Shown: positions 16,827 through 53,884 of the stretch, piece after piece
Position numbering within the stretch: position 1 is the first letter of the stretch
Layout: the number at the start of each line of letters is the position of its first letter
NCBI GenBank assembly: GCA_947172415.1
Contig: OX359200.1
Coordinates: 4,156,501 to 4,220,500 of the forward strand
Reading direction: 5' to 3'
Origin: Chondrosia reniformis
Taxonomy: Eukaryota > Porifera > Demospongiae > Chondrillida > Chondrillidae
DNA length: 64,000 bases
The notes under the pieces: model-generated
What the model saw: the letters and a program-made list of their open reading frames with translations, nothing else
What the model was told of the DNA's origin: nothing
Database searches by the model: none
Position numbers and translations under genes: made by a program

Positions 16827-16900
16827 GCAGTTGTAGCTCAGGGGCAGAGCGACTGGTGGTCATAACCAGCTGTCCTGGGTTCGATTCCCGGCAATATTGC
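16827..16900 (+). tRNA. tRNA-like sequence, second copy
   Basis: Same cloverleaf as at 1696 but with a 2-nt insertion in the 3' acceptor strand (CAATATTGC), which breaks the 7-bp acceptor stem. Box A and box B are intact. Likely a non-functional copy. Confidence 0.45.
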
Positions 16901-19358: not shown

Positions 19359-19505
19359 CCTTTTTGATTGATGACTTGATGTTTTGTTGAACTGATTTAT
19401 TTGTCATGATGTATTGGTGTGTGCCTCATAGGACAGTCTGTCCTAGTGCTATGCATGTGGCACGTTAAATAAAAATAATAATAATAATAATAATAAATAA
19501 TAATA
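18729..19505 (+). mobile_element. 5'-truncated non-LTR retrotransposon
   Basis: The coding 3' end is followed by a 3' UTR and a (TAA)n tail at 19470-19505. There is no RT core, so only the last few hundred bp inserted. A similar 3' UTR (GTGC..ATGCATG..GCAC then ATAATAATA) ends the minus-strand element at 43350. Confidence 0.7.
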
Positions 19506-19529
19506 TAGCAACACTTTTGGCTTAAACTT

Positions 19530-21115: not shown

Positions 21116-22729
21116 TCAAGTTGGATTTAGTGATGGATATTGCTTGATCAGCTCCTTTATGACATCTTGAGTATTTACTGTAATCTGAATTTTATCAAAA
21201 GTTCCTTTGATAACATAGCCATGGTAATGTCTACCTGTCAAGGTAGACAACATTTGAAAACTTGGATTGGAAATTTGTGCTTGTGGAACAAGTTCAAACA
21301 TCAGTGCATTATCAGTCAGCCACCAAAGATGAACCAAACCAGCACCATGTACACCTGTGGGAAGAAGGCACGCAAATCTACTTAGTTAAATTGACTTTAA
21401 AGAATTCGAAAGTATCACATTGTAACACAATACATAGGTCAGGCAAATAGCCAATTTTAGTGACTCATGCTGTATCTTGCAACCACAAGTTTCAACTCTT
21501 AGATTACAAAACCTACCCATAAGGATATCTGCTTCATGGACCATTCTAATTTGATCACATATAGCATAATCCTCCATGAAGACAGAATTGACAGTTGCTC
21601 TGGGAAAGCTTTTCTTTAGGTTATCAATTAATTCATCTTGGTTTTTCAGTACCCGCTGAAATGCTGAGAGTTTGTCATTGGTAAAACGAATGTATGGCTT
21701 ACGTAAAATTACTAACATATTAACCTTTCCATCGGTAGGGATGGGTCTGTAATTATCAACCAAACCACAAGCCTGTAAAACTTTAGCTCTAAATTTTGAT
21801 AGATACGTGTCTGTTAATCCAGTGCCATTACATTCAAAGCATTTTTTAATTTTATCATTTTTACACCTAAACGGTACTGAGGCAAATCCCCAAGGTACTA
21901 TAATAATCTCATCGGCACAATGGACCTTGTCTCCGTTAGGAATGTCTTCAATTGCTCTGGTGTTGCCAAAAATCTTTACTTCCAATTCAGGGAACAAAAA
22001 AGGAGTGTTGCACCTGTTCAAACGGAAGATGTAGGAGTCGTCATTTCCTCCAAATTGTTCAATTGCCACAAAAAGGTTATACCAGCCTAACATCTTAAAG
22101 TAGATATGTACAGCGTGACCACTGTGAATGAACACCTTTCCTTTAATGTAGACCTCACATTTTCCCTTGGGTTGGGCCAATGCAACTCCTTTGACCATTC
22201 TCTCCATGTAGCCTCCATGTTTAACATGTTGTGAAAGGTCTCCAAATTTACATTGTGGTGATCTGAGATTGGCACTGATACTATCAGGATAAAGCCACAT
22301 CCCACCATCTGCAAATTCATCCAAATGGTAAGAGCTAGAGGGCTGGAAGCCAGTGTTTCTCAATGTACAGATGCTGATTTTTCCACTGTAGTCGTTGCCA
22401 ATGCAGTCTATGCGACTGGAAGTATCACTCATGCAGACTCGATAGTGCCGACTGTAAGTACGCTCTATAAACGTTTCACAAAAGGTGCCGGGTTTCCAAG
22501 TAGATTTAGACTTATTTCCTGACACGCGAAGTCTACTTTTATTCGGATTAAAAGCTGACCGTCCTTGTGTGGAGTTGAACAAATCAAACTTGCCAGACTG
22601 AATCGGCTGATCATCACGATCAGCTTTACTTAGTATGTCATGAGGAATACTTAGGACTCTTAAAAAGTATATTATTCCAGCTAAAAGTAGCGATACGAAG
22701 AAAATCCATCTTCTTCTACTATACATCAT
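21116..22729 (-). CDS. GT61-family glycosyltransferase, copy 2
   Basis: Exons 22729-21517 (1213 nt) and 21354-21116 (239 nt) give 483 aa; the intron is 162 bp, longer than copy 1 by a 9-bp insertion. The architecture is the same as copy 1: MMYSRRRW signal anchor, glycosylated stem, GT61 catalytic region ending in VHGAGLVHLWW. Differences are mostly conservative (NDKIKKCFEC for NDRINKCFEC, LNRCNTP for LNRWNTP; the W-to-C change is notable). All frames are open. The IS3EU transposon lies 197 bp upstream of its start and separates it from the next inhibitor copy. Confidence 0.85.
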
Positions 22730-22963
22730 TTTTGATCAGTACTGTACGTATATTACAGGGCTCACCTAAATGCATATGCAAATAGTACCATCCGCCCGAC
22801 AAAACAACAAATTCTATAGGAAGCCTTTTTGGGACGCCGCAGGCGCCCCTATATTGTTTTCAATTAACGTAATGGTTTCCTGTCCGTAACCTTGTAAACC
22901 GCGTCTGTCTCCAAAATGGCGGACGTATGGCACGCCGTTCGTAACAAAAATCGCCACCCTCTC

Positions 22964-23155
22964 ACGATGTCGTTGCCGAACCATACGACGTCATGAGTGC
23001 CTTATCACGACGGCTTCAGCCCCTCACGACGTCGTGTGTGCCTCATAACGTCCTCAGAGGTAACAATGTCGTCGTAACGTATCACGACGGCTCCAGCCCC
23101 TCACGACATCGTGTGTGCCTCATAACGTCCTCAGATGTAGTTCCTCATAATAAAC
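22964..23155. repeat. Left subterminal repeats of the IS3EU element
   Basis: Two tandem copies of about 73 bp (TATCACGACGGCTTCAGCCC... and TATCACGACGGCTCCAGCCC...) plus further ACGACGT/ACGTCGT palindromes. The right end (25930-26055) has four or five ACGTCGTGAGAA-type motifs. Such repeats usually serve as transposase binding sites; that role is inferred. Confidence 0.65.
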
Positions 23156-23766
23156 GCCCAATCTTCTGTTTTACACATAAACGCCTGGCTAACCGGAAAG
23201 ACGATAAAAACAGGCCTACGGTTATCGGCTGCATATAATTATCATGACGATGTATATCGTCAACGGTCATTAAAGGGTTAAAGCATGTAAGTCTAGGAAA
23301 ATATATATATAGAACAAACTTATCCCAAACAGAATTTTATTATAAAATTTTATAATTATATATATATATATATTTCGAAAACTTGAGTAATGTTGTAGTT
23401 TATGTACATATATAGAAGAGAGCATTAAAGGATATCATTTTCCCTTAAGCTTAATGTACATTTAGTGACGTAACTCTAACAAATGCCAAGATACGGAGCT
23501 AATACTTGATGTCAGCATTCACAGACTTGAATGAATCATTTCCAAAGAGTTTTAGAAAATTTCATTTATACATTCATATTTGCCCTATCTCTCACCATAC
23601 ATTAAATCAATATAATATGCTAGGTTTTAATGTACATGTTCATTATATAATTATATATAAAAAAATAAAATTTATTCATAAAAATTGCAATTGGCCTGGG
23701 TATAGTATAATAAGTTATATACGCATACATGGCTTCATATAAGGCTTAGAATGATTATATTGGTCT

Positions 23767-25530
23767 TCAACTGGAGTCACGGAATGTAGTAACCAGTGCA
23801 ACAGCTGCTTCATACATTTCTATTGCATAATTATCACTGTCTTCCAAAGGATTAATATGTTGCCTAAGCAATTCTTCATCGACCTCTGACAACACAATTC
23901 TACTCTCTGGAACAGTGACCCCTTCATATGCACCATCAGTAGCTTCTTCTTCCATCTCAATACCGTAATTAGAGGTAACCTGGTCAAAAAAGTCAACAGC
24001 TACCAACCCTGATCCCTGTAATTGAAGAGCACCTGAAACAAAAAGTTGCCGTGGAGAAAGATTATGCATGGTTCGCAGTCCATGATTATTCCATCCTTCT
24101 TTAAAGATTTCCATCGCTTTATTGATTCTTGGTAAGTAGATATAATGTAGGGCGAAGAGATGCATATCATTGAGAGGATCCAAGAGACCATGATGCTCAA
24201 GAAAATAAAATAACCTGTAGTAAAGTTTTGTCACACTAGCATGAAGATCTCGCCAAAGGCGTTCAATTCTTTGGTTGTGAGTTGAGCAGCCTGTTATCAT
24301 GCTACCTCTGTTGAGTCCACGATTAAGGAGCATATGACGAGCAACTTCATAGTTTTCTCTCCCATAATCTGAACGAACACGGGACGGAAGCCCATACTGC
24401 TGAACAGCTTCCAAAAAGCTTCTATAGACGGTTGAGGCCCTATTGTTAGTACTGCATTTTAGATAGGTTATTAATCTACTGTATCCATCGATGGCACCGT
24501 GAGTAACAAAACGCCATCTTATAAGTTTGTGATGACCATCTAATTGCAAAATAAAAATTTCAATATATAACCAGCTAAATATCATCAGTCTACCTATATT
24601 GAAATCCATAATGTTGAGACCTATATACTCTTAATTACATAATGCCACCCTTTGTGGTCTATATCAATGTCAATTGCAACAAGAATAATATAGTTAACCC
24701 TATTTTGCATACACGAATTACTCACCAATGTGCCACAAGCAATTTGGTCCGGGTACAGAATATGGTCTTCTAGATCTTCTATTTCCACCCCACCTAAGAG
24801 GTCCATTTAATGGATCTGTCCTTCTGATACTGCTTCTTAATTGCTCTCGAGACACCTTCAAACCCATGGCACGAATCCTTCCCATGACTAAAGTTTCTCC
24901 AACGTATGGCAATGTTCTTCGCAGGTCTTCCAAAATGTCATCCAATCCATTATCAGTAATTGATTCTCCTTCCTCATCAAAAATGCTATATTCATCACGC
25001 CTTCTGTATATAGTCATGCGGGACACCCCTAAAAGCGATGCTATGCGGGTCCATGAAAAAGATAAAGATCTCAGATACACTAACTGTTCCTTCGAGATGA
25101 CAAACCTAGGCCTTCCTCTACTCAGTGCATTGACAGTAGGTGCAGAATAGGCCGAAGTACTGGAGGAGGTTTCAATTGTGTCACTGTACTCTTGCCATTC
25201 TGATTTAAGTGATACAAGAACTGTTTTCAGCTCTTCAAGAGTGGATTCAAGTTGTTCCATGGTTTCATTACCTTCAGAAGCGGTTTCTGCTACAACATCT
25301 TTAATCTGAGTGACATTTCTGATGCATACACCTAGTCTGTCAACAGCATAATCTGCATATGCTTTGTTTGATATGCCAGCTTGCCTCTCCAGAGAATTTA
25401 TAAACCGATCGAGTTCTAAAAAATAATCTGTCCAACCCCACCGATCCTGAGGCAATTGATTCATATTTTCAAAACCTGCATGGCAAATCGAAAAAAGATA
25501 ACATATAGGCAAAAAATTTAATCGAAACAA
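23767..25530 (-). CDS. IS3EU-type transposase (rve-fold integrase)
   Basis: Exon 1 (25530-24726) and exon 2 (24539-23767) join across a 186-bp GT-AG intron (donor GTGAGT, acceptor TTGCAATTAG), giving 525 aa; splicing recreates [13 protein letters not shown]. An N-terminal helical region is followed by an HTH ([18 protein letters not shown]) and an integrase core with the triad D in WHID, D in RSDYGREN and E in [10 protein letters not shown], spaced DD34E after a 56-residue gap. An acidic tail ends in FRDSS. The true start is uncertain: a good acceptor at 25477/25476 suggests an upstream exon, otherwise ATG 25528-25530 serves. All frames are open and all catalytic residues present, so it may be active or recently so. 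Confidence 0.8.
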
Positions 25531-26082
25531 ACATTTATCTTAACTAAGCAATAATTATTAAGCCGCTTACTGAAAATGGCAACTTTGAAAAGATTTTATT
25601 TTAAAATAATACAGTTGAAACGATCCTTGCCTTAAACTGGCGACTGTCAGGAATACAGCTTAAAAGTTCCTTGACACATAGGTTTCCGGTTAGCTGGGCG
25701 ATAAGGTATGATGGTCGTTTATGCCATGTGCCCTGCACAATCCGTCAAAAACCTTTTTCATACGACGTTTGTTACAATGCGCATGCGTAAATATATTCAT
25801 AACCTACATAATATGCGTCTACGTTTATTATTATATATATTATACGAGTGTATATTATTCTAATGTATAATTTTATTCATAGTGTATTGCTAGTGTGTTT
25901 AGTGAAGAGCCCATGGCGTTTATAGTCACAACGTCCTGAATATCTTTACGACTTCCTGAGTAATCTTCACGACGTCGTGAGAACATTTCAGTACACGACG
26001 TCGTGAGAATCTTTACGACGTCGAGAGAATCTTTACGACATCGTGAGAGAGTGGCGATTTTTGTTACGAACGGCGTGCCATA

Positions 26083-27052
26083 CGGACGCTCGGCTGGCTT
26101 TCGTTTTCTAGCTTAAATTAACTTTTTCCTCCTTAGCGTCGAGGTTGAACCAAGGATTTAGAAACCACCTTTACTAATACTATGTAACAGCTTGCGCAAA
26201 AACGTTTTCTACGAGATATGGCCTTGAAAAATTGACGGCATACAAGAGTTGACCGGAATTCGTTAACCGGACATCTAATAAGAACCAGCAAGTAGTAGGA
26301 GTTTACATGGGGGCGCCTGGCACCCCACGAGTTATTTATACTCAAACTAGACTTGTTTTAGAAAACATCTTTAACTAGAGATCGATAAAGGAGAGATTTA
26401 TGGAAAGTATCAATACGGACAGTGAACAGATACTTGATCTTGAAAGAGGAACATGTGTGACCACAGAAGAAAGCACTGGCATTGTTGCTCTTGAATTATA
26501 CATCATCTATATGCTCACGTCTATATAACTGGTAATGTATACATATAAAATGCAATAGAATTGCTTCTGTAACTCTCTCATTACTTTATTGACCAAACTG
26601 TCAAACTAATGCTAATATGGAATATGGATTCGTTTTTTAAGTCCCCAAATTACATACAAGATACAGTAGATTGTAGATGCATAGTTTAAGTATAAAGAGT
26701 AAAACAAGGTCACTTTCACACTCCAGCCAAGATTACCCGCAAGCTGCAGTAGTGATATTTCTTGGTATGATTATACACTTAGGAAAATAGTACATTCAGT
26801 TGAGGCTGTTTACAAGATAGACTGACTGAAGTGAATGTACATAGCTTAAAGGCCCACTGTCATAAAAAGTGACGTTTTAAAGTTGATAGGTATTTCCTCA
26901 TTACTTACATAAGTGGTAGTAGATGAGGAAAAGGTGTTGTAGTTACAATATGTATATACATACAGTGGGGGAATCACAGAGTGTATATGATGATTTGTTC
27001 TCTCTTGGCCTATGAATGTGCACATATGTAAGCTACCTATGTATATGTATAG
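26083..27052. promoter_or_regulatory. GT61-upstream module and inhibitor 5' region
   Basis: This continues the sequence interrupted by IS3EU: CGGACGCTCGGCTGGCTTTC, AAGAAACCACC-like, the GGGGGCGCCTGGCACCCC hairpin near 26309, and the MESINTDSEQ segment at 26400. It then leads to the sequence preceding the Kunitz exon. The first part is mirrored at 40893-41235. Confidence 0.45.
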
Positions 27053-28650
27053 TGGCCACAGAGACCCCCGATAGATGCACTCTACCAGCTGAAAGTGGCC
27101 TCTGTAAGGCTGCTTTTCGACGTTTTTATTTCAACTCTGACTCTGGTCTGTGTGAACAGGAGGATGTGGAGGGAATGACAATAACTTTGAGACTATTGAG
27201 CAGTGCCAGCAAATTTGTAAGTATAGGACTGTTCTGTTTTGCCAAAGCACGAATAATTGAAGTCGTTGGCAATATTTGCAATTCAGGCTCCTAGAAAGTG
27301 ATGAATGAATTCGAAGATAAATGATTTAAAAAATGTATAAAATATATTCCAGTTGATATATTTTTGATAGTTAAATTTGTATCGAAGTTCTCTAAAACAC
27401 TATAGGTCCTACTGCATGCTCAGTGCATGATCAGCACTACTTTGATATAGAGGACGGAGAGTATGTCCCCTGCATTGGTACATGCACTGAGCCACAGGTT
27501 GCGAGTGGCTGTGAATGTCCAGTTGGAACTCTATTTGATGAAAAGACAAGGGCTTGTGTTCTTCCATTACAATGTCCACAAAAATGTAAGTTACTATAGC
27601 TATGTGAAACTACTGTACTTATTTTGTAGTGTATTAAATATGATAAAGGGTGTACAGTATGTATAGAAGTAGCTGATTTATGGGCAGAATATACACACAA
27701 GTGCAGATGTTTGTTTAATAGAATTCTCTTATAAACTTGATGTACGTATGACCTCAAGCTTAGAGTTAATACATGCATCTAATTGAATCAAAAATATAGC
27801 TGCAGTACTATTTAGGTAAAATGACCCTGTTTTACATATGTATGTATGGATTATTCCCTTAAAACTGACAACAAATAGATTTTTTGCCTATTCAACTCCC
27901 TAACCATTGTGATTTTACTAACTGAAAGGTTTTGAAGCTGTGAATAACAGCTCCAAGCAGATGAAACAGGTATAGGCCTACTTCTTCTGGAGAATAGGCA
28001 GCCTTATGTTTGAATGTGCTAGATAGGAAGCAAGTAATTAGTTCTGAGGATACTAGAAGTGGGTACTTTACAACCCATTTTTTCAATTGAAAGTGGTTGG
28101 TCATCTGCTCCCTCTGTCTTCGGCTACAACATAATATTGAGATGTATTGCCAAGAAACTTTAGGAACAAAATTTTACAAGTATAACATACAAGAAAAAGG
28201 GGGAATAGAAATCAAAGAGAACTTGGGTTAGGGTGTTGCGACAGTAACTAGTACATCTGGATAAGGAGGGAGAAGGACAGTGATAATGCGATAAGGGTAT
28301 ATACCCGTATGTCACTTTTGTACTGTCAGCCTTATCACAAGATCACTGTCTTGTTCCACAGTGTACTAGTTACAAGCACTGCCGTTCTTTCTTCTAACTT
28401 GTTTGGCCAGGCACTCAGTCAACTTTAAGATATCTTTTGATCTCTCATATATATATAGACTGTCTTGAAGGTGGCAATTTTTACTTACCTGGTAGTAGCT
28501 GGAATTGTTCAGATGGATGCAATACATGGTATGAGTAAAAGACACCTATGTACGTATACGTATTTTAGATTTTCCTTCCTCTTGCTTGGAATATGCTATG
28601 CAGTGGTTGCGCTGGTGGTGTTGTTACATCTACCTTAATCGCATGTGAAG
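27053..28650 (+). pseudogene. Kunitz/TIL/pacifastin inhibitor, copy 2 (broken)
   Basis: Kunitz exon 27053-27216 has lost 10 bp after GTGTGAACAG, so the frame shifts before the FIFGGCGG block. TIL exon 27406-27585 lacks 18 nt (six residues including two Cys). Pacifastin exons are intact: 28459-28528 reads (Y)[16 protein letters not shown]...DGCNT, and 28604-28650 completes C-GCAGGVVTSTLIACE. The downstream tail exon is absent because the kinase palindrome starts at about 29000. This copy best shows the ancestral order Kunitz-TIL-pacifastin, but it cannot give the full protein. Confidence 0.75.
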
Positions 28651-28994
28651 GTATGCCATTCTTGTGTCATGCATATTAAGTAATGCATGGAATATTTGTT
28701 GTAATTATAATGAATCAAAGATTTGTGAGCTTTGGCAGCAGCAATGAATTCATTGTGTGTGCTGCATGAAGATTGCTAATTTTTAATTCATTAAACTCTA
28801 AAACACCATTTTCCAGCACAATGCATAATCCATTCTACAGCTGTTTCTGGGAATGTCACACTTAATGACTCTATACCTTCTCTGTTATTTGTGTATACAA
28901 ATTAAATAGAATATAAGGAGCTTAAGGAAATCAAAGTCTATGAAATGGAATTTCAAGTTTATATATAAGCTATGTTGACTCAATATAGGACAAT

Positions 28995-29440
28995 ACATAT
29001 AATTCCTTCACTCACCATCACTCCACTCAAATGTCTACTAATTCCTTCACTCCACTCAAATGTCTACTAATTCCTTCACTCACCATCACTCCACTCAAAT
29101 GTCTACTAATTCCTTCACTCACCATCACTCCACTCAAATGTCTACTAATTCCTTCACTCACCATCACTCCACTCAAATGTCTACTAATTCCTTCACTCCA
29201 CTCAAATGTCTACTGATTCCTTCACTCACCATCACTCCACTCAAATGTCTACTGATTCCTTCACTCACCATCACTCCACTCAAATGTCTACTAATTCCTT
29301 CACTCACCATCACTCCACTCAAATGTCTACTGATTCCTTCACTCACCATCACTCCACTCAAATGTCTACTAATTCCTTCACTCACCATCACTCCACTCAA
29401 ATGTCTACTAATTCCTTCACTCACCATCACTCCACTCAAA
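28995..29440 (+). repeat. 39-bp minisatellite, left arm
   Basis: About a dozen tandem copies of a 39-bp unit (ATTCCTTCACTCACCATCAC + TCCACTCAAATGTCTACTA), some shortened to 29 bp by loss of TCACCATCAC. Long reading frames across it on both strands are by-products of the 39-nt (13-codon) period. The mirrored array at 39055-39200 has about four copies. Confidence 0.9.
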
Positions 29441-29479
29441 TGGCATTAGCATATTTTGATTTACTGTGTATAAGTCTAC

Positions 29480-30367
29480 TTGATAATGCCTCGTTATCCC
29501 AGAGATCTTCACTCAGCCCTCAAACTTGGTTTGAATACAGTCACATTGATGCAGATAGCTCGTGATGTTGTCGAAGGAATCAGATTTCTTCATGGTCAAG
29601 GTCTCCTTCATAGAGACATTAAACTGAAAAACGTTATGGTCAGTAATTTATCAGCATGTATACGTGTGTACATCGGCTCTTTAATGCTGGTGATTTGTGT
29701 GATACTCGGCAATTATTATTTTATGTTGGCCAATAATTTGTACTTGGCATTCATAAAGGTTTAATTTGGTAAGAGTTGTACATGAGTTGTTGAATAAATT
29801 TATCGAAAACTTTAGTATTCTGTGCTTCCAGATAACCCCAAATCATTCAAAGTGTATGTATGCACTTCATTGAAGCAATTGCCCAAAAGTACATACGTAC
29901 TTACTATCCCAATTCTAAAAAAAGTATTTTTTTCTTTTTCTTTTTTCTTTCAGTTGGATAAACTCAACAGGGCAAGATTGACTGATTTGGGGTTCTGTAA
30001 GCCGGAAGCAATGATGACCCATACAATAGTGGGCACGCCCATTCACATGGCACCCGAGCTCTTCTCGGGAAACTACGACCTCTCTGTCGACGTCTATGCC
30101 TTCGGGATCCTCTTCTGGTACATCTGTTCCAATCAAAAGGATTTGCCCGTCAACTTCAGTCAGTGCGGGAGTAAGGACAAGCTATGGTCCAATGTCAAGC
30201 AGGGCCTTCGACCCGAAAGACTGCCGAGGATCACAGACGAGTGCTGGAAGCTGATGAACGAATGTTGGCATCCGGAACCAAAATCAAGACCTCTTATTGG
30301 AGTTGTTGCTGAGAAGGTGGAAATAATCCTAGCTGGAGTGAAGGATAAATTTGGAAAGCAGTACTAA
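29480..30367 (+). CDS. DSTYK-like protein kinase, C-terminal half (left arm)
   Basis: Two exons: 29480-29638 (its start may be a further-upstream splice site) and 29954-30367, with donor ATG|GTCAGT and acceptor TTTCTTTCAG. The protein covers kinase subdomains VIb to [10 protein letters not shown] catalytic loop, [11 protein letters not shown] (DLG in place of DFG, as in DSTYK), [12 protein letters not shown] activation loop end, [21 protein letters not shown] and CW..P..RP. The resemblance to the dual Ser/Thr-Tyr kinase DSTYK is strong. The N-lobe with ATP-binding Lys is not present upstream; minisatellite and inhibitor sequence replace it. It is therefore a 3' gene fragment unless exons lie elsewhere. 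Confidence 0.75.
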
Positions 30368-30976
30368 TGGCGGATACTTTTAAAGCGTGACCTGACCCAT
30401 GAATTCTCTAATTAGTGGACTGATTTCCAGTTCAAATTTATTTGATTCCTGAACTAGAATTGGCAATAGGAACCTTAATTGTATTGTAAATACTGCCGTA
30501 AATTATTGTGAAATGTTGCATGGTTTGTGTAAGCTACTTTCTTATGTTTTTGTATCTAATGCAAGTCTTGTTCACAGGTTTGTTATTATTTAACAGTTTA
30601 TGATTTGAGAAACTGAGAATGAGAATAAAGACTGGCTTTTAATGTAATGTGTGCATGAAATATTAACTCGAGATCTTATTGATTTAAAGGTGGCCATTTT
30701 TAAGTTGTTAATGTAGAGAGTATTCCAGTGCTCACTGGTATATATAATGGGAGGATTGAAGGAGTCACATTTTCAATTGATATCAATGTCATTATTGCCT
30801 GTTTGCAGTATGATTCGTTACCTTTTTTGAGCCATTCAATAAAGAGATATTCTGTACTTGCTGATATATTATATTGAAAGAATTCATTTTAATTAACACT
30901 TGATATCATTGTTTACTAGTGTACATTTCACCTCTTTGACCTGTGCTTAATTAATAGTCTTACTTCATGTGTGCAG

Positions 30977-31363
30977 TTGACTGATAAGAATCGTGCAAAA
31001 CTGACTGACTTGGGTACCTGTGCCCAAAAGGTGTTGGTTGAAGAGGACTTTGTTGGTACCCCGATTTACATGCCTCCGGAGAAGGACTACGACATGCAAG
31101 GAGACATTTATGCTTTTGGAATACTCTTCTGGTTCATCTGTTCCAATAATGTCTCTCTTTCAAAGAATTAACAATCTCAGACCAGTCATCATGGGTTGCT
31201 GGAGGCAGTTCAAGAAGGATTGAGACCTGAGAGACTGGATAAATTTGATGATGTTTCATGGAATCTAATGAATTGTTGTTGGCATGGCAACCCTAAGAGA
31301 CGCCCACATCTTGGTGACATATTAGCAGCCATCGACTTAATTAAGCAAAATATCAAACAATAG
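30977..31363 (+). pseudogene. Second DSTYK-like kinase 3' exon (left arm, premature stop)
   Basis: The exon opens after a GTGTGCAG acceptor with LTDKNRAKLTDLGTC (DLG motif), then VGTPIYMPPEKDYD (PPE instead of APE) and [18 protein letters not shown] at 31169-31171 interrupts it right after SLSKN. The mirror copy at 37137-37522 has TAC (Tyr) there and stays open to the natural stop at 31361-31363. It is a diverged paralogue of the kinase 0.6 kb upstream. Confidence 0.75.
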
Positions 31364-31905
31364 TTTATTTTTTAATGTATTTTTCTCATGTATGTAACCT
31401 TTTTAATCCACAATCTTGTATATACAGCTTTGATCTCATGTACATAAAACAAGAAATATTAAACTATATACATTGGCGCTCACTTGATATACCATTAAAG
31501 GGTTCTATGTATGAAAAGATGAGGAGAGTGAGAAAATATAAAGTGAGCTGAGATCAAAGAGATATATGATTTATATATAGCAGAATTAATGAATAATTAC
31601 GTATATTGTTTTGTACAAAAATGGAAGAATCCATACATTCATGTGATATTGGGCTATTAGATTAAGTCAAGATCGGTCTTTTCGTAAAATTCATATACAG
31701 TTCATAAAGCAAGTGTATACGCATACATATACACTTCTTTGGCTCACTTCATTTCATCTAGAAGGTACACAACTAAATTGTAATATTCTAATCCAGATTT
31801 CAATGATGGTGATGAATATAGAGAGTCAAAAATCTTAGACTATATGTATGGACTGTATATGCTATACATATATAGCTAGTTTAAATGAGAGTTCTGTTCC
31901 TGTTA

Positions 31906-32060
31906 TTAATAACGTCTATTAGATCTGGCACAAACAAAGACAGCTGCAAGCAAAATGATCAGGCTGATAACAGCTGCAGTAAATCCCAAGATCATATATG
32001 ATTGCCAAACCACAAAAAGCCAAAAACCTCCAACATGCACAATTGCCAGGAACACCAATT
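31906..32060 (-). CDS. Possible terminal exon of a single-pass membrane protein (left arm)
   Basis: The minus-strand frame ends at TAA 31908-31906 and encodes WLFVVWQSYMILG, then FTAAVISLIILLAAVFVCA and a basic RSNRRY tail: a clear transmembrane helix with a short cytosolic end. A good internal acceptor (TTTACTGCAG) precedes CTGTTATCAGCC, so the exon may start there. It converges with the kinase fragments. No upstream exons were recognised, so the gene is at best partial. The mirror is at 36440-36593. Confidence 0.35.
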
Positions 32061-32519
32061 ATGACATTCAGTCACTCCAAATTCACAAGCTTAGGCCGAA
32101 TGACTAAAATATTATGTTGCCTACAGAAGTGGAACTCTTTCGTTTTCAGTCATTCGAGAATATCGGATAAGAAAATTTGAGAATGATCCCCAAATTTTCG
32201 AAAATTTTTCGATGTGTTTATAAATTTGATAATTACTCAGTAACCGTAGCGGATATTAAGCAATGACACTTTGATCTCCTTAGGTGTGAAATTTTCTTCA
32301 TTTTTAATGGCAGTAATAGCTGGTAAAGGCTTAGTTGGTCAAAATATATCGAGATGTATTTGAAACTTTTTGCGACTTCTTGACATCCCCTTGCGCGCCA
32401 CTGTGTTCTTGCCTACTATAAGGGGGAGCATTGTGAGCGAAATCACATGGGCCAAATGTACGATTCGAGAAAGTGCGGTGTAGGGCAGACGGTGCCGTAT
32501 ATGAATAATATATACGGCA

Positions 32520-33340
32520 TAATGGAGTGTTTGATTGTCACTCCTGAGTGACTGCTTGAGAGGCTACTTGTCAAGAGTAGACTGTGAGTGTGATTGGATA
32601 TGAATAGTGGAAGAAGGTTGAGAAAGATTCAGTATATGGAAGGGCTAAAAGCTGAGCAAAAGTTGTACAAGCCACCTACATCTAGTGGGGGTGAGAGTAG
32701 AGGAGTTGTCCTCCTTCAGCTGAGGGAATTTGGAGCAGATGATGATTCCAAAGAAGTAACCTGCATCCTTCCAGTATATAGTCATATGCTTGTCTCAAAG
32801 ATTAGTGACAATAAAATGATACTGCACTGTCAAAGTCTGGCAATCGGAATGAAAACTCCTTATTGATGAACAATTGGAGGGCAAGTCTGGTGCCAGCAGC
32901 CGTGAATTCCAGCTCCATTAGTGTATATTTAAGTTGTTGCAGTTAAGTTCATATAGTTGCAAAGGCTTACAAAGGCAGGCTGAGGTGAGAGCTGGCCTAT
33001 CATTGACTGATCTGCGTCACCACGTTATAAGGCAACGAATTCCTTTGAATTGCAGGCAAACAAACTAAGGATATGAAAATGTTCCAGAGTTGCAAGCTGC
33101 ATTTGCATTGTGGAAGGATAAATTCCTCTGGGCTAACTGCTCCAATCCAACTGGGTAATTTGTTGAGAATTTTTTTCTTTGTAAGATGACTTAGTCAAGG
33201 AATGGGGCCGGTAACCCCATGCAACAATTTAAGCCTTTGTCTGGGGAAGTAGTAAATAATCCTTTCAATTTCCAATAATATACACCTCATCATAGAAGAT
33301 TGAGATTTTTGTTTTTTGTTGATTGAGTGGAATTATGAAT
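32520..33340 (+). pseudogene. rDNA relic, plus orientation (spacer, 18S pieces, 3' spacer)
   Basis: 32520-32775 resembles the spacer preceding 18S on the opposite strand (34883-35095). 18S landmarks follow: GTCATATGCTTGTCTCAAAG near 32781 (18S start region), then ATTGGAGGGCAAGTCTGGTG and CCAGCAGCCGTGAATTCCAG (530-loop region) near 32872-32912, with the intervening 18S deleted. Next comes unassigned sequence, then 33195-33340, homologous to the region after 28S on the other copy. CpGs are largely lost and universally conserved bases are mutated, so it cannot be functional rRNA. Confidence 0.8.
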
Positions 33341-33360
33341 TTGGATCGGATCCAGAGTTG

Positions 33361-33429
33361 CTAAATTTCAGTCTAGACCACTAACCACTTACAACGAATT
33401 AGGCCTTAGTGGTCTAGACTGAAATTTAG
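33361..33429. repeat. Perfect 23-bp hairpin in the rDNA core
   Basis: 33361-33383 is the exact reverse complement of 33407-33429 (arm starts CTAAATTTCAGTCTAGACCA), with a 23-nt loop. It lies between the two convergent rDNA relics, near the centre of the inner inverted repeat. Confidence 0.9.
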
Positions 33430-33639
33430 TCACACAATTTCACATTTCCACTTTTGCAGAATTGTAAGTCAAAGGCCCCCTTCCTATTAGTCGATAAAAT
33501 CTCATTTACAAAAAATAAGTCAATTCATTTTCAGTCATTCAAGAAAATGTCGTGTTATGTTCTCATTGTAAAAGTTGGGTTTTTAAGGACTCCGTGCGCA
33601 GTCGCTAGAAGGCAAATATAGATCCCTGAGCCTCACACC

Positions 33640-35095
33640 TAAAGTAAAACAAAAATCAACAATCTTCTATGATGAGGTGTATATTATTGGAAACTTTGAA
33701 AGGAACTCCTTCAAGTTGCTACAAACCTCAAGAACAAAGGCTTATCTTATTAAGGCATGGGGCTACTCTAAAGGTGACAATGTCCGTTCCTTGTTTGACT
33801 GTAATTCATCAAGAGATGTGTATATAACACTTCTGGCAGGGATTCTGACTTAGATGTATTCAGTCATAATAATCCAGCTCAATACCAAATGTCTGAATCA
33901 AAGGTTCCTCTCGTACTAAGCTTTGCAATAACCCATCATCAGTAGGCAACCTGTCTCACAATATGGTCTGAACCCAGCTCATACTTACCATTGCAACAAC
34001 CCTTCATCAGTAGGCAACCTGTCTCATGATATGGTCTAAACCCAGCTCAACGTTTGAGAATAGGTTGAGGTTGTTTCACCATTTGTTTCAACCCCAAAAT
34101 GCCTAATTATTCACTTAACCTGATAAAACTGCACGCACTCACCAGCTACTATATGGTTCATTAGTTGTTCACCCCTAACCCAAATCAGATCAATTTGCAT
34201 GTCAGAACCACTTCAAGCTTCCACTAGGATTTCCTCTGTCTTTGCCCTGTTCAGGCATAGTTCACCATCTTTCGGTTCGCAACAGGCACACTCCACTCAA
34301 ATCCCACCACCTGTGACGCAGATCAGTCAATGATAGGCCAGCCTGCCTTTAAGCCTTTGCTCACCTTGCAATGATCACTGGACTTTGCCAGTCCAGTATC
34401 TATTGTCACTACCTCCCCAGGTAGTGATTGGGTAATTTGCATGCCTTCTGCCTTCCTCGGATGTATATATAGTAGCCATTTCTCAGGCTCCCTCTCCAGA
34501 ATCAAATCCTAATTCTCTGTCACCTGTTGCAACCATGGTAGGCCAATACCCTACCATCAACAGTTGATATGTCAGAAACTTAAATGTACCATCGCCAGCA
34601 CCAGGGCCCTGCAATTCGAACAGTTATCATGAATCACCAAGGGACCAGCCAAAGCTGCATTGGTTTTGTATCTAATAAATACATTCCCAGGATTCCAAAC
34701 TTTCTGCATGTATATTTTAGCTCTAGAATTGCCACAGTTATCCAAGTAGCAGTCATTGTCAAATAAACTATATATAACTGGTTTATTGAGCCATTCACAG
34801 TTTCACAGTTAAAGCATTCATACATAGACATGCATGGCTTAATCTGAGACAAGCATATGACTACTTGCAGGATCAACCAGGTTACTTCATAATCATCGAC
34901 ATCTGCTTTACAGATCCAAATTCCCTCTGCTGGAGGAGGACAACCTCCTCCACTTTATGGAGGTGGCTTGTCTTAGCTTTTAAGCCCTTCCACATATATG
35001 GACTCTTTCTCAACCTTCATCCACTATTCATATCCAATCACACTCATAGTCTACTCTCGACAAGTAGCCCTCGAGCATTCACTCAGGAGTGACAT
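33640..35095 (-). pseudogene. rDNA relic, minus orientation (spacer, 18S 5' end, 28S pieces)
   Basis: Reading the minus strand: spacer 35095-34883; 18S start ACCTGGTTGATCCTGC at 34882-34867, continuing recognisably for about 490 nt (GGCCTACCATGGTTGCAAC, GAGAGGGAGCCTGAGAAATG) to near 34395. Then 28S pieces: GCGAACCGAAAGATGGTGAA (34282-34140 region), CCTCAACCTATTCTCAAAC, a tandemly duplicated AGCTGGGTTTAGACC...CTACTGATGA block, the sarcin-ricin loop AGTACGAGAGGAACC (33917-33903) and the 28S 3' end GACTGAATACATCTAAGTCAGAATCC to about 33850. A whole rDNA repeat is thus compressed to about 1.2 kb. Most of 18S and 28S, and all recognisable 5.8S, are gone. Confidence 0.85.
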
Positions 35096-36008
35096 TCAAA
35101 CACTCCATTTATATCATTCCTTAATTGGTCTTCCCACTCCAGAAGCCAATTATCCAACCCTTTCTTTCACTAGCCAAGAAAGCCCAGTAATATAATTATT
35201 TCCTGGTCTTTTCACACGGCACTGATTGGAAAATGCCACCTTAAATCCTAAACAAATGACTGCTGACAATCTGCCAGTAGGTCAGTCATATTTAGGACAG
35301 TAAGGTGACTCAATGTCTGGGCTTTAATCATTCTGTTTGATCCAAATCTGTGGTACAATCATGACAAACATCAGCTAACTGCAATTGCACTCATTGCAAC
35401 CACAACCCAATGACTTTTCTACTTCAAAATTGCCATTGGTTCTGTTGTAACTTTATAGACAAAAAATCCCAGTCATTCACTGGTATATATTCAAATGATC
35501 TTTTTGGCCAAAGCCTCTTGTATGGGAAGTACATATACGTAAAATCTCGAATGTGATTTCAATGCACTACAAGCCCAAGTCTATCACATCTGAATCTCCA
35601 TGGGAAACAGCTCGAGAGTATACCTCATTCAGCACTGAGGGCAACCGTAACAGCCATCTACTGTTCCCAGTGTTTTTGAGATTCCATTGTTTTTGGCCGA
35701 TTTCCCTTCAATGAAGGTGAAATCTGGAAATTCACACTCAATTGTCATTTCTCCGATAGACAATCATAATACCGTCATTTCCAATGGGAAAAACTCGAGG
35801 CACTTTCGGTCACTCAAAACTCGTACAGATAAGCTTGCCAAGCGTCCAGGATTCAACTGTAGCTTGTTCAAGCCTCTAGTTACGAGCTGTGGAATTTGCG
35901 TGCAATCTGCAATTACATTACTTTGGTCAAACACCACTGATCACATCGATCGTTATCGGGCATTTTTCGAATTACCATCGTAAGGTTTGGGAGCATTCAT
36001 ACGGCACC
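35096..36008. other. Unpaired spacer between rDNA relic and right arm
   Basis: About 900 bp with no counterpart on the left side of the core. It sits where an rDNA intergenic spacer or promoter would be relative to the minus-strand relic, but no recognisable motif supports that. The open frame at 35687-35983 has no known domain and no mirror. Nothing further is supported. Confidence 0.4.
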
Positions 36009-36439
36009 GTCTGCCATATACCGCACTTTCTCGAATCGTACATTTGGCCCATGTGATTTCGCTCACAATGCTCCCCCTTATAGTAGGCAAGAACACAGTG
36101 GCGCGCAAGGGGATGTCAAGAAGTCGCAAAAAGTTTCAAATACATCTCGATATATTTTGACCAACTAAGCCTTTACCAGCTATTACTGCCATTAAAAATG
36201 AAGAAAATTTCACACCTAAGGAGATCAAAGTGTCATTGCTTAATATCCGCTACGGTTACTGAGTAATTATCAAATTTATAAACACATCGAAAAATTTTCG
36301 AAAATTTGGGGATCATTCTCAAATTTTCTTATCCGATATTCTCGAATGACTGAAAACGAAAGAGTTCCACTTCTGTAGGCAACATAATATTTTAGTCATT
36401 CGGCCTAAGCTTGTGAATTTGGAGTGACTGAATGTCATA

Positions 36440-36593
36440 ATTGGTGTTCCTGGCAATTGTGCATGTTGGAGGTTTTTGGCTTTTTGTGGTTTGGCAATCA
36501 TATATGATCTTGGGATTTACTGCAGCTGTTATCAGCCTGATCATTTTGCTTGCAGCTGTCTTTGTTTGTGCCAGATCTAATAGACGTTATTAA
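36440..36593 (+). CDS. Possible terminal exon of a single-pass membrane protein (right arm)
   Basis: Mirror of 31906-32060 with the same reading: hydrophobic FTAAVISLIILLAAVFVCA followed by RSNRRY and TAA. Both copies keep the frame, but the arms are nearly identical, so this is not independent evidence of selection. Confidence 0.35.
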
Positions 36594-37136
36594 TAACAGG
36601 AACAGAACTCTCATTTAAACTAGCTATATATGTATAGCATATACAGTCCATACATATAGTCTAAGATTTTTGACTCTCTATATTCATCACCATCATTGAA
36701 ATCTGGATTAGAATATTACAATTTAGTTGTGTACCTTCTAGATGAAATGAAGTGAGCCAAAAGAAGTGTATATGTATGCGTATACACTTGCTTTATGAAC
36801 TGTATATGAATTTTACGAAAAGACCGATCTTGACTTAATCTAATAGCCCAATATCACATGAATGTATGGATTCTTTCATTTTTGTGCAAAACAATATACG
36901 TAATTATTCATTAATTCTGCTATATATAAATCATATATCTCTTTGATCTCAGCTCACTTTATATTTTCTCACTCTCCTCATCTTTTCATACATAGAACCC
37001 TTTAATGGTATATCAAGTGAGCGCCAATGTATATAGTTTAATATTTCTTGTTTTATGTACATGAGATCAAAGCTGTATATACAAGATTGTGGATTAAAAA
37101 GGTTACATACATGAGAAAAATACATTAAAAAATAAA

Positions 37137-37522
37137 CTATTGTTTGATATTTTGCTTAATTAAGTCGATGGCTGCTAATATGTCACCAAGATGTGGGCGT
37201 CTCTTAGGGTTGCCATGCCAACAACAATTCATTAGATTCCATGAAACATCATCAAATTTATCCAGTCTCTCAGGTCTCAATCCTTCTTGAACTGCCTCCA
37301 GCAACCCATGATGACTGGTCTGAGATTGGTAATTCTTTGGAAGAGAGACATTATTGGAACAGATGAACCAGAAGAGTATTCCAAAAGCATAAATGTCTCC
37401 TTGCGTGTCGTAGTCCTTCTCCGGAGGCATGTAAATCGGGGTACCAACAAAGTCCTCTTCAACCAACACCTTTTGGGCACAGGTACCCAAGTCAGTCAGT
37501 TTTGCACGATTCTTATCAGTCA
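37137..37522 (-). CDS. Second DSTYK-like kinase 3' exon (right arm, open)
   Basis: Mirror of 30977-31363, but without the stop: the frame runs [63 protein letters not shown] and ends IKQNIKQ. This is the kinase C-lobe from the DLG motif to the end. The PPE in place of APE and the lack of the catalytic loop in this exon mean that activity depends on upstream exons not found here. It is probably the 3' end of a truncated paralogue. Confidence 0.7.
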
Positions 37523-38131
37523 ACTGCACACATGAAGTAAGACTATTAATTAAGCACAGGTCAAAAGGTGAAATGTACACTAGTAAACAATGATATCAAG
37601 TGTTAATTAAAATGAATTCTTTCAATATAATATATCAGCAAGTACAGAATATCTCTTTATTGAATGGCTCAAAAAAGGTAACGAATCATACTGCAAACAG
37701 GCAATAATGACATTGATATCAATTGAAAATGTGACTCCTTCAATCCTCCCATTATATATACCAGTGAGCACTGGAATACTCTCTACATTAACAACTTAAA
37801 AATGGCCACCTTTAAATCAATAAGATCTCGAGTTAATATTTCATGCACACATTACATTAAAAGCCAGTCTTTATTCTCATTCTCAGTTTCTCAAATCATA
37901 AACTGTTAAATAATAACAAACCTGTGAACAAGACTTGCATTAGATACAAAAACATAAGAAAGTAGCCTACACAAACCATGCAACATTTCACAATAATTTA
38001 CGGCAGTATTTACAATACAATTAAGGTTCCTATTGCCAATTCTAGTTCAGGAATCAAATAAATTTGAACTGGAAATCAGTCCACTAATTAGAGAATTCAT
38101 GGGTCAGGTCACGCTTTAAAAGTATCCGCCA

Positions 38132-39019
38132 TTAGTACTGCTTTCCAAATTTATCCTTCACTCCAGCTAGGATTATTTCCACCTTCTCAGCAACAACTCC
38201 AATAAGAGGTCTTGATTTTGGTTCCGGATGCCAACATTCGTTCATCAGCTTCCAGCACTCGTCTGTGAACCTCGGCAGTCTTTCGGGTCGAAGGCCCTGC
38301 TTGACATTGGACCATAGCTTGTCCTTACTCCCGCACTGACTGAAGTTGACGGGCAAATCCTTTTGATTGGAACAGATGTACCAGAAGAGGATCCCGAAGG
38401 CATAGACGTCGACAGAGAGGTCGTAGTTTCCCGAGAAGAGCTCGGGTGCCATGTGAATGGGCGTGCCCACTATTGTATGGGTCATCATTGCTTCCGGCTT
38501 ACAGAACCCCAAATCAGTCAATCTTGCCCTGTTGAGTTTATCCAACTGAAAGAAAAAAGAAAAAGAAAAAAATACTTTTTTTAGAATTGGGATAGTAAGT
38601 ACGTATGTACTTTTGGGCAATTGCTTCAATGAAGTGCATACATACACTTTGAATGATTTGGGGTTATCTGGAAGCACAGAATACTAAAGTTTTCGATAAA
38701 TTTATTCAACAACTCATGTACAACTCTTACCAAATTATACCTTTATGAATGCCAAGTACAAATTATTGGCCAACATAAAATAATAATTGCCGAGTATCAC
38801 ACAAATCACCAGCATTAAAGAGCCGATGTACACACGTATACATGCTGATAAATTTCTGACCATATCGTTTTTCAGTTTAATGTCTCTATGAAGGAGACCT
38901 TGACCATGAAGAAATCTGATTCCTTCGACAACATCACGAGCTATCTGCATCAATGTGACTGTATTCAAACCAAGTTTGAGGGCTGAGTGAAGATCTCTGG
39001 GATAACGAGGCATTATCAA
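38132..39019 (-). CDS. DSTYK-like protein kinase, C-terminal half (right arm)
   Basis: Exons 39019-38861 and 38545-38132, mirror of the left copy. The catalytic loop [19 protein letters not shown], the MAPELF block and the C-lobe are intact. It differs from the left arm at a few residues (KNDM for KNVM beside the donor, PRFTDE for PRITDE). The N-lobe is missing, as on the left. The second DSTYK-like exon (37137-37522) follows 0.6 kb downstream. Confidence 0.75.
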
Positions 39020-39054
39020 GTAGACTTATACACAGTAAATCAAAATATGCTAAT

Positions 39055-39200
39055 GCCATTTGAGTGGAGTGATGGTGAGTGAAGGAATCAGTAGACATTT
39101 GAGTGGAGTGATGGTGAGTGAAGGAATTAGTAGACATTTGAGTGGAGTGAAGGAATTAGTAGACATTTGAGTGGAGTGATGGTGAGTGAAGGAATTATAT
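39055..39200 (-). repeat. 39-bp minisatellite, right arm (contracted)
   Basis: About four copies of the unit at 28995-29440, in inverse orientation. The copy-number difference accounts for the ~300-bp asymmetry of the palindrome outside this point. Confidence 0.85.
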
Positions 39201-39546
39201 GTATTGTCCTATATTGAGTCAACATAGCTTATATATAAACTTGAAATTCCATTTCATAGACTTTGATTTCCTTAAGCTCCTTATATTCTATTTAATTTGT
39301 ATACACAAATAACAGAGAAGGTATAGAGTCATTAAGTGTGACATTCCCAGAAACAGCTGTAGAATGGATTATGCATTGTGCTGGAAAATGGTGTTTTAGA
39401 GTTTAATGAATTAAAAATTAGCAATCTTCATGCAGCACACACAATGAATTCATTGCTGCTGCCAAAGCTCACAAATCTTTGATTCATTATAATTACAACA
39501 AATATTCCATGCATTACTTAATATGCAAGACACAAGAATGGCATAC

Positions 39547-40810
39547 CTTCACATGTGATTAAGGTAGATGTAACAACACCACCAGCGCAACCACTGCATA
39601 GCATATTCCAAGCGAGAGGAAGGAAAATCTAAAATACGTATACGTACATAGGTGTCTTTTACTCATATCATGTATTGCATCCATCTGAACAATTCCAGCT
39701 ACTACCAGGTAAGTAAAAATTGCCACCTTCAAGACAGTCTATATATATATGAGAGATCAAAAAGATATCTTAAAGATGACTGAGTGCCTGGCCAAACAAG
39801 TTAGAAGAAAGAACGGCAGTGCTTGTAACTAGTACACTGTGGAACAAGACAGTGATCATGTGATAAGGCTAACAGTACAAAAGTGACATACGGGTATATA
39901 CCCTTATCGCATTATCACTGTCCTTAAATTCTCCCTCATTATCCAGATGTACTAGTTACTGTCGCAACACCCTAACCCAAGTTCTCTTTGATTTCTATTC
40001 CCCCTTTTTCTTGTATGTTATACTTGTAAAATTTTGTTCCTAAAGTTTTCTTGGCAATACATCTCAATATTATGTTGTAGCCGAAGACAGAGGGAGCAGA
40101 TGACCAACCATGCACTTTCAATTGAAAAAATGGGTTGTAAAGTACCCACTTCTAGTATCCTCAGAACTAATTACTTGCTTCCTATCTAGCACATTCAAAC
40201 ATAAGGCTGCCTATTCTCCAGAAGAAGTAGGCCTATACCTGTTTCATCTGCTTGGAGCTGTTATTCACAGCTTCAAAACCTTTCAGTTAGTAAAATCACA
40301 ATGGTTAGGGAGTTGAATAGGCAAAAAATCTATTTGTTGTCAGTTTTAAGGGGATAATCCATACATACGTAAAACAAGGTCATTTTACCTAAATAGTACT
40401 GCAGCTATATTTTTGATTCAATTAGATGCATGTATTAACTCTAAGCTTGAGGTCATACATACATCAAGTTTATAAGAGAATTCTATTAAACAAACATCTG
40501 CACTTGTGTATATATTCTGCCCATAAATCAGCTACTTCTATACATACTGTACACCCTTTATCATATTTAATACACTACAAAATAAATACAGTAGTTTCAC
40601 ATAGTAACTTACATTTTTGTGGACATTGTAATGGAAGAACACAAGCCCTTGTCTTTTCATCAAATAGAGTTCCAACTGGACATTCACAGCCACTCGCACA
40701 AACGGCAATACCAACAACCTGAGGCTCAGTGCATGTACCAATGCAGGGGACACACTCTCCATCCTCTATATCAAAGTAGTGCTGACCATGCACTGAGCAT
40801 GCAGTAGGAC
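39547..40810 (-). pseudogene. TIL/pacifastin inhibitor exons in the right arm (no Kunitz exon)
   Basis: Minus-strand exons: TIL 40810-40613 (198 nt, full length), pacifastin 39738-39669 and 39593-39547. The Kunitz exon expected further upstream (beyond 40890) is deleted, and the tail exon is replaced by the kinase arm. The donor of the first pacifastin exon is ATG|ATATGAG instead of ATG|GTATGAG, so the GT is lost. The coding parts are otherwise open. Not expected to yield a normal protein. Confidence 0.75.
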
Positions 40811-40892
40811 CTGTAGTGTTTTAGAGAACTTTGATACAAATTTAACTGTATTTCTCTATCAAAAATATATCAACTGGAACATATTTTATACA

Positions 40893-41235
40893 TTAATAAG
40901 GCTAGTTTGAGTTTAAAAAAACTCGTGGGGCGCCCATGTAAACTCGTACTACTTGCTGGTTCTTATTAGATGTCCGGTTAACGAATTCCGGACAACTCTT
41001 GTATACCGTCAATTTTTCAAGGCCATATCTCGTAGAAAAGTTTTTGCGCAAGCTATTACATAGTATTAGTAAAGGTGGTTTCTTAATCCTTGGTTCAACT
41101 TTCGACGCTAAGGAGGAAAAGGCTCATTTAAGCTAGAAAATGACAGCCAGCCGAGCGTCCGCCATTTTGGAGACAGACGCGGTTTACAAGGTTACGGAGA
41201 GGAAACCATTAATTTAATTGAAAAAATATAGGGGC
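40893..41235 (-). repeat. Inverted copy of the GT61-upstream module, with IS3EU empty site
   Basis: The reverse complement carries CTCCAAAATGGCGGACGCTC, TTCTAGCTTAAATGAGC and GGGGCGCC-like hairpin sequence in the order seen upstream of GT61 genes. 41156-41161 is the single-copy CGGACG target (inverted), so this copy never received the IS3EU insertion. Confidence 0.75.
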
Positions 41236-41244
41236 CCCTAAAAT

Positions 41245-41420
41245 TTGTATAGTAGGCAAGAACACAGTGGCGCGCAAGGGGATGTCAAGAAGTCGCAAAA
41301 AGTTTCAAATACATCTCGATATATTTTGACCAACTAAGCCTTTACCAGCTATTACTGCCACTCAAAATGAAGCCAATTTCACACCTAAGGAGATCAAAGT
41401 GTCATTGTTTAATTTGTGGG
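41245..41420 (+). repeat. Third copy of a palindrome inner-arm segment
   Basis: AAGAACACAGTGGCGCGCAA to about 41420 matches 36088-36255 directly and 32260-32420 inversely, with several substitutions. It lies exactly between the right end of the palindrome and the resumption of the unit at about 41450, which marks a rearrangement junction. Confidence 0.75.
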
Positions 41421-41919
41421 TCACTCTAAAATTTTATTATCCGACATTTAGAGGCGTCCCTCGTTACGTACGGAAATCGTTCAGTTTTTCTGACTGCAAC
41501 CGTAGCTAGATAAGACCCTCTTTGTCCATTAAAAGAGTTTTTTGTATTACAAAAAGTCCTTGGGATTGGGCAGAGTGTCCATTATCCAGAATTCGGAGGT
41601 CGTCCGCTATTCGGGAGTTGTTAATGTACTAATCGTATACAAAAATAAGTTGGCATGCTGTCCGTTATACGGTGACTGTCCGCTATTGGGAGTGTCCGTT
41701 AATAGAGGTTTTACTGTACTTTGATTCTGGAAAAGTATATATTACCTAGGGTAATGTTATTAAGTAGTCCTTTTTAGGACTAATTAATATTCATACGTAG
41801 TTAAACATGTACATACACACATCGATACATATTTTATACACACTGTACATATTATATGCCTGCAGTACATTTGGAGTATATATATACTGTACATATATAC
41901 TCAAATTCATTTTATCAAG

Positions 41920-42026
41920 GTAAAAATGATGATTTGGAGAACCCAAGCTCAGCATCTGATGTTGCAAAGCAATCAACTCTTCTCTTAGCAACAGTTATCA
42001 TGGTTCTCATTTGCTTCTTTTCTTGA
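41920..42026 (+). CDS. Orphan inhibitor tail exon
   Basis: A 107-nt phase-1 exon after a TTTTATCAAG acceptor encodes [17 protein letters not shown] and the hydrophobic [15 protein letters not shown] end. No plus-strand inhibitor body precedes it; the nearest inhibitor exons are inverted. It is the stranded 3' end of copy 2, cut off by the kinase/rDNA palindrome. Confidence 0.8.
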
Positions 42027-44618: not shown

Positions 44619-44619
44619 C

Positions 44620-53730: not shown

Positions 53731-53884
53731 AGTTTGAGGCAGAGTTGTTCCTATATTGATGCGAAAGACTGGATTCGTTTGGTCGACCGTATTACTTTGG
53801 TAATTTAAGCTCTGCCTTCTCTTCTTACGTTATCTGTTAATATTTTTACTTGTCCATGTGTAGGAATTAGGAGTGTTTGTTGCG

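Follow-up and report, generated by a model that had tools for sequence, protein, structure and literature searches.

The locus described here raises the question of how a large palindrome carrying host genes could form around the remains of ribosomal DNA (rDNA). It lies in a stretch of 64,000 nucleotides (the window; C12:4156501-4220500) on chromosome 12 (OX359200.1) of the kidney sponge, Chondrosia reniformis; plain positions below are those of the window, and C with a number denotes a chromosome. The assembly that we searched comprises 117,379,552 bases in 15 contigs, and odChoReni1.1 is described as 14 chromosomes and the mitochondrion (PMC12181767). Judged from its sequence, the palindrome is real in the assembly, and it probably arose by inverted duplication through template switching at inverted repeats that were already in place. 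This is a known mechanism with an unusual seed and not a new genetic element.

Self-BLAST aligned the inner arms, 35999-39197 and, inverted, 32500-29292, at 99.19% identity over 3,210 columns (E 0.0), with mirror coordinates that sum to exactly 68499. This sum and the near-identity over about 3 kb had been pointed out in an earlier note on this DNA, and both were confirmed. The mirror continues outward with 39057-40894 against 29140-27332 (96.2%), where the sum shifts by 302 bases to 68197 because the lengths of the two minisatellites differ (443 and 141 bases). Further out, 40933-41161 aligns with 26311-26083 (94.3%) and, outermost, 41156-41239 with 22925-22841 (94.1%). The whole mirror therefore pairs 22841-32500 with 35999-41239 up to one breakpoint, and is interrupted by later changes, namely a transposon at 22925-26083 on the left and a loss of about 975 bp (the equivalent of 26357-27332) on the right. 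The outer arms do mirror inhibitor and GT61-upstream sequence, as the earlier note proposed, with alignments that reach 22841 and 41239 despite the interruptions. The arms also bear kinase sequence, as it had said: Pfam revealed parts of two protein-kinase domains, and only partial domains were seen. Between the arms lies an asymmetric spacer of 3,498 bp (32501-35998). The parts of the palindrome and its borders, in order, are:

21386-22735, minus strand: GT61-like open reading frame (ORF) adjoining the left end; its sister ORF at 58583-59932 matches PF04577
22841-22925, plus strand: outer end of the left arm, which lies upstream of the GT61 gene and mirrors 41156-41239 (94.1%)
22925-26083, minus strand: DNA transposon, in the left arm only, with inverted ends of about 50 bp, the target-site duplication GGAC and an integrase-core ORF (PF24764, E 2.2e-80)
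26084-28866, plus strand: outer left arm, an inhibitor-gene unit of the local tandem array, read as template; weak TIL match on its sister, unit B
29000-29442, plus strand: left 39-bp minisatellite, at the joint of array and kinase segment
29443-32061, plus strand: left kinase arm, read as template, with partial kinase exons at 29816-30367 and about 30961-31360
32062-32088, plus strand: left remnant of the 63-bp rDNA spacer satellite (26 of 27 bases; 0 of 200 shuffles as good)
32093-32500, plus strand: left rDNA upstream spacer, the putative seed inverted repeat on the template side
32521-33020, plus strand: decayed left rDNA unit, directed to the centre, with a spacer remnant and small-subunit rRNA (SSU) fragments (Rfam, 32758-33005)
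34142-34880, minus strand: decayed right rDNA unit, reading towards the centre, with the 5' part of SSU (34352-34880) and a large-subunit rRNA (LSU) fragment (34142-34451)
34881-35998, minus strand: ancestral part of the region upstream of the right rDNA unit; differs from the sister core at 14 sites in 1,031 bp (34968-35998)
35999-36406, minus strand: outer spacer of the right rDNA unit, taken to be copied from the left spacer (406 of 408 bases identical)
36407-39197, minus strand: right kinase arm, read as the inverted copy, with a satellite remnant (36411-36437) and a shorter minisatellite (39057-39197)
39198-41239, minus strand: right outer arm, an inverted inhibitor unit and the GT61-upstream end, about 975 bp shorter than on the left
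41248-41413, plus strand: probably a displaced part of what was originally the right rDNA spacer (identical to the sister core C12:4028361 at 165 of 166 aligned bases)
41450-42434, plus strand: continuation of the local gene array, in which an array unit lacks about 450 bp between 29001 and 41450

The core contains an SSU remnant of 302 bits (34352-34880) and an LSU remnant of 110 bits (34142-34451), both on the minus strand, and a plus-strand SSU remnant of 93 bits with large internal deletions (32758-33005). A further LSU match at 33830-33929 (minus strand, 30.5 bits) is below the Rfam cut-off of 50. Since both SSU remnants point to the centre, the two units form a convergent pair. The earlier note had called the spacer between the arms decayed rDNA; this was correct for the SSU and LSU remnants, but a large share of the core consists of rDNA upstream spacer and not of rRNA.

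Relatives of the core and outer spacer were found on 11 of the 14 chromosomes in a genome search in which matches of at least 300 bp were considered and the best candidates scored. Copies were fetched from 18 places, 16 single loci and the joined chromosome 10 and chromosome 12 stretches. In those that could be read, the spacer (window 36406 to 35440) is followed by a remnant of the transcribed spacer and this by SSU; at one locus (L020), 5.8S and LSU follow downstream of SSU. Beyond the spacer, most fetched copies have further sequence in common. From the order of the copies and the common sequence past the spacer, it follows that the repeat is rDNA with its upstream spacer, variously decayed. 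A 63-bp tandem satellite was detected by a tandem-repeat run in three of the six loci tested (L029, L031 and L036) and not in the other three (the joined chromosome 10 stretch, the joined chromosome 12 stretch and L026). The ends of the spacer were also considered as transposon termini, an idea that was dropped, the sequence past the terminus being common to most copies.

The most informative copy on the same chromosome is a sister core at C12:4028361-4033144, about 160 kb from the palindrome and 97-98% identical to the window core. The 17 kb fetched around it contain no kinase match, which shows that the core family can occur without arms. The sister already holds convergent units, as expected if the inverted repeat preceded the duplication. 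On chromosome 10 (C10:932-940 kb) the core is followed in a row by spacer, half a satellite unit, kinases and minisatellite, and kinase sequence is present on just one of its sides. This kinase segment is 96.6% identical to the window arms, the half-unit of the 63-bp satellite at its joint is the same one as in the window, and its side bears the much-deleted SSU with the LSU piece opposite, which is the layout of the window's left. A search of the arms across the rest of the genome, suggested as a check in the earlier note, gave no other near-identical kinase arms than this one-sided copy beside a related core. In a tree of 21 spacers (410-bp comparison) the window, C12:4028 and C10:932/937 group together on a long branch.

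The one-sided copy on chromosome 10, the armless sister core and the small distance between the inner arms (10 substitutions in 2,649 aligned sites, minisatellite excluded) agree with the recent inversion-duplication proposed in the earlier note. Its view that no known element has this make-up was not borne out: the core is a dispersed rDNA repeat, and the pieces fit a composite insertion followed by one inverted template switch.

Two further repeats near these relatives may be added. In the chromosome 10 rDNA relic (C10:931989-937429, L021 and L022) the upstream spacer is multiplied, with repeats of about 475 bp on both sides. A possible second palindrome around the sister core (3855-4433 and 15039-15634 of the joined L023 and L024) was rejected; the repeat recurs at 53070-53757 and 19476-20185 of the window.

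Several comparisons together indicate that the left arm was copied, in inverted orientation, into the right rDNA spacer. Inside position 35999 the right spacer differs from the sister at 14 of 1,031 sites and outside it at 21 of 408 (Fisher p = 8e-5), but in this outer part 406 of 408 bases are shared with the left spacer. Directly past the right arm, the fragment at 41248-41413 shares 165 of 166 aligned bases with the sister and 161 of 166 with the right spacer of the window; most plausibly it is the original right spacer, shoved outward by the mirror copy. The outer arms are units of a local GT61/inhibitor gene array that occupies much of the window; genes of the right outer arm are inverted relative to the other array units, whereas the array genes of the left arm have the normal orientation. 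We took the left as the template because of the kinase side on chromosome 10, the break in the right spacer, the displaced fragment and the orientation of the array.

The anatomy can be accounted for by the following history. A composite of 39-bp minisatellite, partial kinases, convergent decayed rDNA pair and spacer would have entered the GT61/inhibitor array; on chromosome 12 its insertion would have replaced about 450 bp, and the same composite would be the one on chromosome 10. After a break or a stalled fork in the right rDNA spacer, the 3' end would have paired with the inverted left spacer, and such pairing is, we infer, the natural trigger. Synthesis would then have run outward for 5-6 kb through the left kinase, the minisatellite, the inhibitor and GT61-upstream sequence, and would have switched back beside the remaining original right spacer (41248-41413), after which the array continues. 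The asymmetric core of 3.5 kb would be whatever lay between the two seed repeats. Later the arms accumulated mutations, about 975 bp were lost on the right, and the transposon entered on the left; the uninterrupted empty site in the right arm shows that the transposon postdates the mirror. Some gene conversion may also have occurred at this stage.

Several observations weigh against this history. The direction of copying depends on few informative sites. The link between the fragment and the sister is loosened by a 2-bp insertion that is present in the sister and absent from both the 41248-41413 fragment and the window spacers. In the spacer tree the window spacers are 94.8% identical to C12:4028 and 92.4% to the C10 spacer beside the kinase, and a left spacer derived from a C10-type kinase segment would not predict the closer match to the chromosome 12 sister. 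The C10 core matches the window both ways (8993-9464 to 32546-33020, 81%; 9198-9464 to 34850-35084, 80%), because the core itself is partly mirrored. At the exit junction there are about a dozen filler bases and only weak microhomology. The satellite-like stretch at 41414-41450 lacks significance, being equalled by 23 of 200 shuffles, unlike the satellite remnants beside the kinase arms (0 of 200). The right piece 40933-41161 is 99.4% identical to array unit B and 95.2% to the left arm, and was therefore converted by, or derived from, another array unit.

Compared with the chromosome 10 copy, the inner arms show 64 and 62 substitutions in 2,627 sites. When polarised by this copy, their differences comprise seven left-derived and five right-derived changes, each set including one indel (one alignment-edge gap row was left out). 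The outer inhibitor arms differ at 20 of 1,525 sites, which exceeds the value for the inner arms (Fisher p = 0.0009), and at 22 of 1,525 sites in a four-way alignment (p = 0.0003 against the inner arms). Either the arms exchanged sequence with the array or conversion acted close to the centre, or both happened.

Identity that peaks beside the core and drops outward is also what would be seen in an old palindrome whose arms are kept alike by continuing arm-to-arm gene conversion of the sex-chromosome type. We regard such a history as rather unlikely. The chromosome 10 copy is one-sided and the sister core is armless; the outer divergence can be explained by exchange with other array units, as the unit B match shows; and the minisatellite number, the 975-bp difference and the transposon were not homogenised. 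Nor do intact genes stand in both arms, where there are partial kinase domains and, in the left second exon, a stop. Conversion on top of the duplication is possible, and to this extent the ongoing arm-to-arm conversion of the earlier note may be retained, the inner arms being more alike than the outer; other causes are possible too. A copying event in the opposite direction, with the right arm as template and the left as copy, agrees with the inner-arm changes, which are directionless by themselves, and with the left spacer lying nearer the C12 sister than the C10 spacer beside the kinase. Yet the array orientation, the C10 core layout, the break at 35999 and the right-side fragment all favour a left template and make this reversal improbable.

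Long inverted arms and a spacer family on so many chromosomes could also suggest a large transposable element with kinase-bearing inverted repeats. However, near-identical kinase arms were found only here and, on one side, on chromosome 10; most fetched copies run past the supposed terminus, some of them into a 63-bp satellite array, so that there is no fixed end; the dispersed copies keep the rRNA pieces in rDNA order; and no transposase domain was found in the scanned arm and core ORFs of at least 110 aa, the later transposon aside. An element of this kind is barely credible. As to an assembly or library foldback artefact or a haplotype misjoin, inverted repeats are hard to assemble, and the primary k-mer completeness is 69.4% (PMC12181767), which we take to mean high heterozygosity. 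Against this, the arms differ in substitutions, minisatellite number, the 975-bp loss and the one-sided transposon, and the 3.5-kb spacer is asymmetric and has a recognisable sister. HiFi reads with a mean of about 12.9 kb (10.31 Gb in 0.80 million reads) can span the inner mirror of 9.9 kb, and the assembly has a quality value (QV) of 69.8 (figures from PMC12181767). An artefact is thus disfavoured, and we hold it to be very improbable.

A Pfam scan of five further arm and core ORFs gave nothing beyond the right-arm kinase match. A left-specific C-to-A change at 31171 introduces a stop in the second kinase exon of the left arm, so nothing points to two working copies having been selected for; this stop in one kinase copy argues against a selected function of the palindrome, which is neither needed nor indicated. 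On array unit B, the relative of the outer arm, the TIL-like inhibitor ORF scored 22.5 bits (E 1.3e-4), under the Pfam cut-off of 24.5.

The rDNA units of Tetrahymena have the opposite polarity to the centre-pointing pair of the sponge. The palindromic rDNA minichromosome of Tetrahymena likewise has two inverted rRNA transcription units, as described in PMC9967165, whereas the sponge pair is chromosomal, decayed and directed to the centre, with no amplification. The rRNA pieces in the window are truncated and stand within a chromosome, while rDNA of the Tetrahymena type would be extrachromosomal and amplified, with intact rRNA genes. Large palindromes formed at pre-existing inverted repeats are reported from Tetrahymena, yeast, mammalian and tumour cells (PMC2444050, citing Yasuda and Yao, 1991; Butler, 1996; Tanaka, 2002). 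According to this source, these too have a central inverted repeat, mirror-duplicated flanks and an inter-repeat spacer left between the arms. Their seeds are short repeats at the break, whereas those of the sponge are rDNA upstream spacers about 3.5 kb apart; and the sponge case was seen in a genome assembly as one bounded event, with no amplification. Foldback inversions and inverted duplications, as treated in PMC10622511, also give an inverted adjacent copy, explained by pairing of a 3' end and synthesis. In the sponge, in contrast, the copy appears to re-join the original side, with a displaced fragment left behind, and the break would be deduced from the anatomy. Among the papers listed in our literature searches, none dealt with rDNA-seeded palindromes or with the rDNA layout of Chondrosia, as judged by titles and the beginnings of abstracts. 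The window thus offers an unusually readable case, in which template, copy, seed repeats, a probable displaced spacer and an unduplicated sister occur in one assembly. This case suggests that rearrangements in an animal genome can be seeded by dispersed pairs of decayed rDNA units.

The rDNA layout of this sponge seems to us a better question than the palindrome itself. Among 13 fetched loci, the two spacers of one convergent pair (C4:7453176-7487679) were identical at all 779 sites and those of another (C10:6927297-6963416) at 898 of 900, although each pair is about 34-36 kb apart, and the spacer tree joins C4:7453 with C4:7487 and C10:6927 with C10:6963 as sisters. This suggests that some convergent pairs are young or homogenised. 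Other spacers speak against homogenised pairs: a third convergent pair about 16 kb apart (C4:8103489-8119827) is identical at only 412 of 426 sites, a same-direction pair (C6:6125/6144 kb) at 301 of 302, and two unlinked spacers (C6:7733 and C11:6102) are 99.7% identical over their shorter readable part. By eye, six of the ten pairs of spacer neighbours within 40 kb were convergent, three same-direction and one divergent (best candidates with matches no shorter than 300 bp; spacers repeated within a locus were counted as one). We do not call this excess significant, because three of the six lie in one decayed clade and only the best candidates were scored.

Tentatively, it can be imagined that the rRNA genes of this sponge are not kept in one tandem array but scattered over loci, a number of which are convergent (tail-to-tail) pairs with mutually homogenised arms, and that the window is a dead palindromic rDNA locus in which the inverted spacers gave rise to a larger palindrome of host genes; we consider this possible but doubtful. 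If it were true, the rDNA layout itself would drive inverted duplication in Chondrosia reniformis, and if intact rDNA likewise formed homogenised convergent pairs, the species would depart markedly from the tandem arrays in which rDNA usually lies. Non-canonical inverted rDNA units of human DNA, found to be rare in PMC8559705, are inverted neighbours as well, whereas the sponge has its copies scattered over chromosomes and, so far as can be seen, not in a long tandem array. An abundance of palindromic units was once reported for human rDNA, which long reads later showed to be regular (PMC8559705); this history warns against over-reading the sponge spacer pairs.

Elsewhere in the window, self-BLAST revealed a direct repeat of about 7.1 kb (97.5%; 54822-62014 against 1-7134, 54.8 kb apart), so the gene array was enlarged by long direct duplications too. 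Repeats related to a self-inverted stretch of 0.94 kb (92%) at 17397-18334 are found at about 54200-54746 and also close to the chromosome 12 sister core. Two mobile elements within the array were recognised with Pfam, one by a reverse-transcriptase ORF (RVT_1, 43680-44648) and one by an ORF with a helix-turn-helix domain of the DDE-endonuclease type (7651-8403). Two tRNA-like genes at 1695-1770 and 56520-56595 were assigned by ARAGORN to type Sec (anticodon tca), a doubtful call for genes of only 76 bases, and Rfam revealed a weaker third one at 16827-16899.

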